The notes under the pieces are model-generated. The model was not told the origin of the DNA and made no database searches. It worked only from the letters and a program-made list of their open reading frames with translations. Below are positions 1,480 to 30,133 of a DNA stretch of 64,000 bases, piece after piece. Positions within the stretch are counted from its first letter, which is position 1, and each line of letters opens with the position of its first letter. Origin of the DNA: an uncultured Pelagibacteraceae bacterium (GTDB lineage: Bacteria > Pseudomonadota > Alphaproteobacteria > Pelagibacterales > Pelagibacteraceae). A program made the position numbers and the translations under genes. The DNA lies in the NCBI GenBank assembly GCA_902599665.1, contig CACKGK010000003.1:1-64000 (forward strand), in the 5' to 3' direction.

Positions 1480-1543
1480 AAAATTATTAATGTAAAGCAA
1501 ATAATGCTATTGAAATATTAAATTTTATTTCCATATATGGGCT

Positions 1544-26638: not shown

Positions 26639-26941
26639 ATGAAAATAAGATTCGCTATTACATTAATATCAATCCTCTTTTTATCTTCAGGCTGTCAAAC
26701 TATTCAAAATAAAACTGACGAGGTCGTAGAAAAGGAAAATAAAAAATACGGTTTATTTGTTGGTGGAGATGTTAATAAAATGAAGTTAGAATTAGGAGCC
26801 CCTTCCGAAGACACAATTAACGACATAGGGAATGAAGTATTAATTTACAAAACTAAAAAATATGGTGTACCGTGTGAGAGAAGATTTGAAGTTAACGCTA
26901 GTGGAACTATTATAGCTTTTAGTTCTAGTGGTTGTTTTTAA
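26639..26941 (+). CDS. Small outer-membrane-type lipoprotein of unknown function
   Basis: A 100-aa protein with a short signal and lipobox LSSGC (Cys at residue 19). The mature part is a short helix followed by a compact domain (NKMKLELGAPSED, YKTKKYGVPCERRFEVNASG, a C-terminal Cys) that superficially resembles the BamE/SmpA-type beta-alpha-beta fold. Two extra cysteines, at GVPCE and SSGC near the C-terminus, could form a disulfide. I do not recognise a named family. It is divergent from the nucleoside importer and followed by a strong hairpin. Confidence 0.7.
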   Translation: MKIRFAITLISILFLSSGCQTIQNKTDEVVEKENKKYGLFVGGDVNKMKLELGAPSEDTINDIGNEVLIYKTKKYGVPCERRFEVNASGTIIAFSSSGCF

Positions 26942-26942
26942 A

Positions 26943-26964
26943 CTTGTGGGGCGAACCCCACAAG
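26943..26964. terminator. GC-rich 9-bp hairpin between the lipoprotein and hsp20
   Basis: Perfect stem CTTGTGGGG / CCCCACAAG with a 4-base loop (CGAA plus strand, UUCG minus strand). It starts two bases after the lipoprotein stop and lies 15 bp from the hsp20 stop. The following U-run is weak on both strands (UUU on the minus side), so it may terminate inefficiently or mainly protect 3' ends. Confidence 0.65.
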
Positions 26965-26979: not shown

Positions 26980-27426
26980 TTACTTAATATCAATAAGTCT
27001 TTTTTTCTTATGATCTGGTAAAATTCTTTCACATGCAATTGTCAAAAGACCATCCTTAAGTTCAGCACAGTTTACTTTTACGTCGTCTGCAATAGTAAAT
27101 GATCTTGCGAATTGTCTTTGTGAAATACCTTTATGAATTATTTCACCATCTTGATTTTGATCTTCAGACTTATTAATCTGTTTTGTTCTTACAGTTAATA
27201 TATTATCTTCGAACTCAACTTCGACGTCCTTTTTATTAAAACCAGCGAGCGCTACCTCAATTGAGTAGTTATCTTTGCCAGTTTTTCTGATGTTGTATGG
27301 TGGATAGTTCGATTGCATTGTCATGCCACCATTACCAAGCATACTTTCAAATTGGTCAAACATATCGTCAAAACCAATAGAAAACGGCCTTAGTGAGTTA
27401 AAGATTGATAGATCCTTACTTGTCAT
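26980..27426 (-). CDS. Small heat-shock protein, Hsp20/IbpA family
   Basis: A 148-aa sHSP (from the ATG at 27426). The alpha-crystallin domain spans about residues 40-135: YNIRKTGKDNYSIEVALAGFNKKDVEVE, DNILTVRTKQ, HKGISQRQFARSFTIADDVKV and DGLLTIACER. The N-terminal arm holds FDDMFDQFESML. It prevents aggregation of unfolded proteins. The start is set by the AGGAG at 27436-27432, five bases before the ATG; an in-frame GTG at 27432 overlaps that SD. A sigma-32-like promoter and a ROSE-type thermometer lie upstream. Confidence 0.94.
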   Translation of the reverse strand: MTSKDLSIFNSLRPFSIGFDDMFDQFESMLGNGGMTMQSNYPPYNIRKTGKDNYSIEVALAGFNKKDVEVEFEDNILTVRTKQINKSEDQNQDGEIIHKGISQRQFARSFTIADDVKVNCAELKDGLLTIACERILPDHKKKRLIDIK

Positions 27427-27483
27427 ATTCACTCCTTTTGTTTAAGCAAGTTAGTTTATGTGAGCCCCAATAAGGCGGCTTAC
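27427..27483 (-). promoter_or_regulatory. ROSE-type RNA thermometer in the hsp20 5' leader
   Basis: The minus-strand leader can form two hairpins. The 5' one (27483-27460) pairs GUAAGCC with GGCUCAC (one A-C mismatch), extended by CC/GG over a bulged G. The 3' one pairs ACUUGCU (27451-27445) with AGGAGU (27436-27431) across the 8-base loop UAAACAAA, with one bulged G opposite the SD. UUGCU facing AGGA is the hallmark of ROSE elements, which occur in front of alphaproteobacterial hsp20 genes. Heat would melt the imperfect helix and free the SD. Fold derived by hand. Confidence 0.72.
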
Positions 27484-27489
27484 ATTAAA

Positions 27490-27518
27490 TATATGGTATT
27501 TAATTTTAAAATTTCAAT
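27490..27518 (-). promoter_or_regulatory. Sigma-32-like promoter of hsp20
   Basis: Minus-strand ATTGAA (27518-27513), 17 bases, then CATATA (27495-27490). This differs at one position per box from the CTTGAA-N17-C(C/T)TAT-type heat-shock consensus of Alphaproteobacteria. The predicted start falls at the first base of the 5' thermometer hairpin. Confidence 0.55.
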
Positions 27519-29623: not shown

Positions 29624-30133
29624 ATGAATATTTTTTTTATAACACTGATTATTTTTGTTGTTGTTTATATTCTTCTAAGTTGGTTTGCTAGAAGTTCTGC
29701 TAAAAAAATTTCAAGATTTATAAGGATATTAATAATTATTTCTGCAATAGTATTGGCTGTTATCATGGCTTATGCAGGAAGATATATATTTTCATTACCT
29801 TTCGTACTTGCAATCTTACCGCTGATAAAAACAAAAGCAGGAATATCTTTATTTCAAATTCTTAGATTATGGGGTCTTTTCAGAGTTTTAAGAAATTCTG
29901 GAAGATTTAATTTTAATAATTTTAATCAATCAGTTAATAAACAAAGCATATCACTAGATGAAGCTTATAAGATACTAAATTTAAAATCTGATATAAAATA
30001 TACTAAAGCTCAAGTAATGCAGTCTTACAAATCTATTATGAAAAAAATTCATCCAGATGTAAGTCCTGAGCTAACTAGACTTGCCTCGATTGTAAATGAG
30101 GCAAAAGAAATAGTAATCAAACATATTAGTTAA
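29624..30133 (+). CDS. Membrane-anchored J-domain protein
   Basis: A 169-aa protein with two or three hydrophobic helices in the first 75 residues and a C-terminal J-like domain (about 112-169): ISLDEAYKILNLKSD, the HPD motif in MKKIHPDVSPEL, and NEAKEIVIKHI. Alphaproteobacteria carry similar inner-membrane DnaJ-like proteins related to TIM14/Pam18. It would recruit DnaK to the membrane; the client is unknown. Its stop is interlocked with that of the GT9 gene (TTAA at 30130-30133). Confidence 0.85.
   Translation: MNIFFITLIIFVVVYILLSWFARSSAKKISRFIRILIIISAIVLAVIMAYAGRYIFSLPFVLAILPLIKTKAGISLFQILRLWGLFRVLRNSGRFNFNNFNQSVNKQSISLDEAYKILNLKSDIKYTKAQVMQSYKSIMKKIHPDVSPELTRLASIVNEAKEIVIKHIS

Follow-up and report, generated by a model that had tools for sequence, protein, structure and literature searches.

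The only HSP20-family gene found in the 1.2 Mb, 41-contig SAR11 (Pelagibacteraceae) genome studied here is preceded by a leader that is very probably a short, two-hairpin RNA thermometer of the ROSE type, which would add translational control to transcription by RpoH (sigma32). This reading draws on sequence comparison and on analogy with known ROSE elements. The window, by which we mean the whole 64,000-nucleotide stretch of DNA that was analyzed, carries hsp20 on its minus strand (27426–26980), and the closest named relatives of the protein, 99% identical to it, come from single-cell genomes of Pelagibacteraceae (SAR11). The features on which the argument turns are as follows.

27512–27518, minus strand: −35 box ATTGAAA of a sigma32 (RpoH)-type promoter, read in the sequence and conserved upstream of relatives
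27490–27496, minus strand: −10 box CCATATA of the same promoter, read in the sequence; consensus among relatives CCCATATA
27458–27485, minus strand: hairpin 1, from the fold (AUGU/ACAU, AGCC/GGCU, bulged G27476, CC/GG, loop UUAUU)
27431–27451, minus strand: hairpin 2, the putative thermosensor, ACUU-G-CUU/AAGGAGU, from folds, with 99% of core cells paired
27445–27449, minus strand: ROSE motif UUGCU (anti-Shine-Dalgarno), read in the sequence and conserved in relatives
27432–27436, minus strand: Shine-Dalgarno sequence (SD) AGGAG, read in the sequence, with the ATG at 27426–27424
27415–27421, minus strand: AAGUAAG in codons 2–4, complement of the anti-SD CUUGCUU, an uncertain, possible competitor suggested by folds and codon conservation
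26980–27426, minus strand: hsp20, small heat-shock protein of 148 aa (PF00011 HSP20, E 4e-17), with a conserved ATG at 27426

The leader itself (27485–27427, minus strand, about 58 nt) consists of two hairpins directly after the sigma32-type promoter. The preliminary description had read this promoter as a sigma-32-like ATTGAA-N17-CATATA, which is present and equals ATTGAAA (27518–27512) and CCATATA (27496–27490) with 15 nt between them. Across relatives the boxes are best written as CTTGAAA-N14-CCCATATA: an XTTGAAX box is found in all 145 distinct upstream regions (CTTGAAA in 86, ATTGAAA in 40), a 14-nt spacer to a CCCATATA-like box in 135 of them, and the distance from the boxes to hairpin 1 is nearly constant. 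RpoH is encoded in the source genome (TIGR02392, 355 bits, over the cut-off), and the boxes fit what we take to be the sigma32 pattern familiar from alphaproteobacteria. By analogy, transcription would start near 27485–27481, so that the transcript would begin at hairpin 1. The pattern TTGAAA-N11–17-CCATATA has two matches only in the source genome, of which the hsp20 promoter is one; the other, TTGAAA-N15-CCATATA at window positions 1510–1537 (plus strand), lies 6 nt ahead of the ATG at 1544 of an open reading frame that resembles a RegA/ActR-type response regulator, and may mark a leaderless mRNA or be due to chance. At the other end of the gene, 15 nt past the hsp20 stop codon, a perfect 9-bp hairpin, CUUGUGGGG-UUCG-CCCCACAAG, is followed by UUU (26940–26964, minus strand); since this is likely an intrinsic terminator, hsp20 is probably monocistronic. 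Two genes from hsp20, and divergent from it, lies a gene for a membrane protein (29624–30133, plus strand) with a C-terminal DnaJ-like domain that, at 24.5 bits, falls slightly short of the Pfam cut-off of 27.8.

The GC-rich 5′ hairpin of the preliminary description is borne out by a GC content of 50% in hairpin 1, compared with 29% in the window; its role is modeled as structural, and it is not predicted to melt first. Hairpin 2, which ends 4 nt from the ATG at 27426, likewise folds as had been proposed, with ACUUGCU facing AGGAGU, SD included, around a bulged G. Its lower pairs are A27451-U27431, C27450-G27432, U27449-A27433, and the wobble U27448·G27434, its upper pairs C27446-G27435, U27445-A27436, and U27444-A27437, and the bulge is G27447. 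In published ROSE elements the core is a bulged G between a U·G wobble and a C-G pair (PMC11342760), and U(U/C)GCU opposite the SD with a bulged G is the signature of the class (PMC11342760, PMC3669281). The predicted bulged G of hairpin 2 is flanked by U·G and C-G pairs, as the ROSE motif requires, and these flanking pairs form in all 92 model-aligned rows (U·G in 90, C-G in 2). The leader also has a U(U/C)GCU imperfectly paired with the SD and a position ahead of a small heat-shock protein gene, as in the ROSE class, and its exact complement of two hairpins, the first stable and GC-rich and the second holding the SD, is the architecture of the Pseudomonas type. G-C pairs on both sides of the SD/anti-SD core are not found here: the lower C-G is present, and the upper clamp is U-A. 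We also observe that the hairpin 1 core, YGCC/GGGR with a bulged G (27463–27480, minus strand), itself resembles the ROSE core, and that its Y and R, when aligned in the +1 register, switch six times between C-G and U-A by double changes, compatible with a G·G pair in place of the bulge.

Folding of the leader as a single sequence is unremarkable (z −1.13; 25 of 200 shuffles as good), and the case for the element therefore rests on comparison. The string CTTGCT-N3–12-AGGAG alone is expected 0.17 times by chance per window, and although YTYGCT-N-AGGAG has 16 matches in the genome, the one at hsp20 is alone in lying 3–13 nt before the start codon of an open reading frame of more than 40 aa; no other ROSE motif stands next to a start codon in the source genome.

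For this comparison, leaders were gathered from genomes of the same genus, from named SAR11 genomes, from other genera of the family, and from a sister family, and promoter, conservation of structure, motif, and gene all find support in it. CUUGCU is invariant in 141 of 141 distinct leaders of the main group, and is followed by GGAG in all 141 and by AGGAG in 140, so the pairing of UUGCU with GGAG that had been postulated is conserved among relatives; the distance from GGAG to the ATG is 5–8 nt in all distinct leaders. Deeper genera, with 49–55% protein identity, have the same two hairpins, with UCGCU, the other allowed ROSE form, in two of them (L201 and L202). One same-genus genome (G057; leaders L047 and L048) has a diverged Hsp20 of 53% identity, with a CTTGCT/AGGAGG leader and an aberrant upstream region, and a second hsp20-like gene on another contig; this bin may be mixed (3% contamination).

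Covariance among relatives, on which the earlier proposal also depended, is present in the form of compensatory changes in hairpin 1. When the leaders are aligned on landmarks, its stem is paired in 81–92 of 92 distinct cases over nine positions while the bases vary, and on a tree built from the hsp20 coding sequence minus its first 20 codons, we count about 30 compensatory double changes, compared with 0–1 in most slid registers and 13 in the +1 register. In a model-based alignment (A3, 92 sequences), 96.5% of the cells of the whole structure are paired, compared with 48–66% when slid, and 89 cells show double changes, compared with 22.6 in shuffles (0 of 500 shuffles as high); this alignment was fitted to the structure and leans towards its model, which makes the landmark count the cleaner evidence. 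The hairpin 2 core is invariant except for a change of U·G to C-G that occurs twice. Such near-invariance is expected because one side of the core is the SD, and because the core never varies within these genera, covariation offers no independent test of it. At the foot of hairpin 2, A-U and U-A are exchanged in 16 sequences through three independent events. RNAalifold on a MAFFT alignment (A1), in which the SD is one column off in some rows, recovers hairpin 1 only.

A covariance model built from 22 relatives, with the closest clade of the window excluded, gives the window a score of 52.2 bits (E about 1e-9 when the window is searched and 1.9e-8 for the genome) and finds the element in 222 of 297 genomes of the order, including 129 of the 150 near-complete ones. 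All of its best 30 loci lie directly before hsp20, and there is no second copy in the source genome, where the next matches reach 14.5 and 13.8 bits (E > 7). On this comparison, the element is conserved across most of the SAR11 family Pelagibacteraceae. In the sister family (f2; L049–L068 and L204), three hairpins are predicted in the hsp20 leader, and the last of them, UUUAAUC-G-CUUAAGGAGGAUUAAA in a leader ending AAUCgCUUAAGGAGGAUU, sets U-C-G-C-U opposite AGGA with a bulged G; Rfam reports no match on these leaders, notwithstanding a thermosensor that looks like a classical ROSE. This suggests an ancient ROSE element in the order, of which the short form is the one present in the main family.

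Of the Rfam ROSE models, which the preliminary description had proposed to run, one gives the best match and none reaches its cut-off. No Rfam family at all does so in the window, and in a search limited to the leader (151 nt), the sole thermometer match is ROSE_3 (RF02523), at 24.4 bits and E 0.0021, below its gathering cut-off of 43 bits. This match aligns over the full length of the model (27484–27421), places the bulged G at the same positions in both hairpins, and gives hairpin 1 the shape of hairpin 1 in the ROSE_3 alignment. The best leader among relatives scores 28.3 bits, also below the Rfam ROSE cut-off, and no genome of the order has a ROSE_3 match that reaches the cut-off. RF00435 (ROSE) and RF01832 (ROSE_2) do not match the SAR11 leaders, and on that of the window they give nothing even at E up to 10; positive controls were recognized as ROSE or ROSE_2, with 50.3 bits for a rhizobial leader, 72.8 for Tardiphaga, and 92.5 for Escherichia coli ibpA. 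Further matches on the leader, to CRISPR-DR14, MicA, MIR4416, IS128, and trypanosome LSU, have E values of 1 or more and were set aside as chance. Across the phylum, ROSE_3 occurs in 12 of 349 sampled genomes, in 7 of them over the cut-off, and all 12 belong to one family with genomes of 3.7–6.7 Mb; at nine of these loci the motif stands directly before the ATG, with IbpA-like proteins (type MSNVLSLAPLFRQSVGFDRF). Going by PMC3669281, these would be Pseudomonas ibpA leaders, a genus that we infer.

The proposed mechanism follows from this layout. RpoH would transcribe hsp20 from the promoter at 27518–27490, giving a leader of about 58 nt in which a stable hairpin 1 is followed by a weak hairpin 2 that would pair UUGCU with the SD AGGAG. 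At normal sea temperature, hairpin 2 would limit binding of the 30S subunit; warming would open it and allow Hsp20 to be made, such that heat would act on translation itself as well as through RpoH. For the start site, the melting, the access of ribosomes, and the response to temperature, this account argues by analogy from tested ROSE elements. In terms of predicted stability, hairpin 2 of the window alone has about −4.8 kcal/mol at 20 °C and −2.0 kcal/mol at 37 °C, compared with means of −5.6 and −3.0 kcal/mol, respectively, in SAR11, and −7.8 and −4.7 kcal/mol in leaders of the Pseudomonas type; the E. coli and rhizobial ROSE elements, at −5 to −7 kcal/mol at 37 °C, are also stronger than SAR11 hairpin 2. 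By these predictions, SAR11 hairpins are about as stable at sea temperature as the Pseudomonas ones are in the thirties, which may reflect tuning. Minimum free energy folds contradicted one another as the length of coding sequence varied, and no melting point was taken from them. In the predicted ensembles, SD pairing is partial and a sharp transition is absent, with a probability of the ROSE pairs at 20 °C between 0.01 and 0.75 depending on whether 3 to 240 nt of coding sequence are included. Published thermometers (E. coli ibpA and the Tardiphaga leaders) likewise lack sharp melting in the same computation, and for this reason ensemble folding cannot decide the question of melting.

A refinement of the thermometer, compatible with it, is a two-state switch in which the SD and the AAGUAAG of codons 2–4 would compete for CUUGCUU, so that the coding region would help either to expose the start site or to block it. 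CUUGCUU and AAGUAAG form a perfect 7-bp complement, their pairing prevails when 24 nt of coding sequence are included in the fold, and a duplex of equal energy arises in 2.7% of synonymous randomizations only. Codons 2–4 (ACA AGT AAG, 27415–27423) are also the three-codon window with the fewest synonymous changes in the gene (3, compared with a mean of 12 per codon): all 143 distinct hsp20 genes have AGT as codon 3, a choice made for 13% of the Ser codons in the rest of the gene, 99% have AAG as codon 4 (23% in the rest of the gene), and 99% have ACA as codon 2, and two neighboring genes use AAA near the start where hsp20 uses AAG. However, the helix is rare in folds with 33–150 nt of coding sequence, the pairing is lost in the UCGCU genera (L201, L202) and in L203 while the ROSE hairpins are kept, CUUGCUU and AAGUAAG are both invariant and hence do not covary, and start-proximal codons are constrained in the two neighboring genes as well. 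We therefore consider the switch doubtful, and give the same low weight to the idea that selection for a switch that is bistable, sharper, or tuned to cooler conditions lies behind the codon conservation in Pelagibacter and its sister genera. CTA stands at codon 6 in 79% of these genes, though it makes up 3% of the Leu codons in the remainder of the gene.

It is less likely still that heat control is solely transcriptional, with hairpins that shield the mRNA at its 5′ end and an SD/UUGCU pairing too weak to matter, although the RpoH-type promoter is conserved, all strong covariation falls in hairpin 1 at the very 5′ end, and hairpin 2 of the window has only −2.0 kcal/mol at 37 °C. What this account leaves unexplained is why none of the 141 leaders departs from CUUGCU, unpaired G included, while neighboring leader positions vary, and why UUGCU alternates with UCGCU. 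The conserved bulged-G core YGCC/GGGR of hairpin 1 could be read by a protein, but a leader that binds a ligand or a protein (Hsp20 in autoregulation, for example, or another RNA-binding protein), with the SD in hairpin 2 by coincidence, is highly improbable given that the element is confined to hsp20, has no aptamer-like junction, and has a two-hairpin layout that functions as a thermometer in Pseudomonas (PMC3669281).

The closest known counterparts of the thermometer read here are the short two-hairpin ROSE-like elements under sigma32 control at Pseudomonas ibpA (PMC3669281). Thus, while the initial impression of a very short ROSE with two hairpins holds for this leader, the design is not new in itself. 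The Pseudomonas ROSE_3 elements share with SAR11 a sigma32-type promoter, the small heat-shock protein gene, a similar total length, a stable hairpin 1 with a bulged G beside CC/GG, and a hairpin 2 that sets ACU(U/C)GCU against (C)AGGAG. They differ in that the SAR11 hairpin 2 is weaker and has an A-rich loop without the upper G-C clamp (GCUUA..AAAGG compared with GCUGA..UCAGG), and in that the SAR11 leader is AT-rich and alphaproteobacterial rather than gammaproteobacterial. RF00435 of rhizobia and RF01832 of enterobacterial ibpA also have U(U/C)GCU paired with the SD around a bulged G before small heat-shock protein genes, but are longer, with three to four hairpins. In SAR11 itself, Stav et al. 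2019 (PMC6429828), in a survey of intergenic regions, listed "a possible RNA thermometer" for strain HIMB5; the main text of that paper does not name the gene concerned and never mentions heat-shock genes. This candidate may be the same as the hsp20 leader element. We found no description of a ROSE element in SAR11 in the literature searched.

Overall, comparison supports the structure well, and we regard the leader as a real, conserved, short candidate thermometer of the ROSE type. SAR11 bacteria, which count among the most abundant cells in the sea, have small genomes in which few regulators are known. If the reading is true, the leader would provide them with a directly testable temperature sensor, whose variation among ecotypes could be compared with habitat temperature, and the short ROSE design would extend from Pseudomonas to a distant, AT-rich lineage in which it goes unflagged at Rfam cut-offs.
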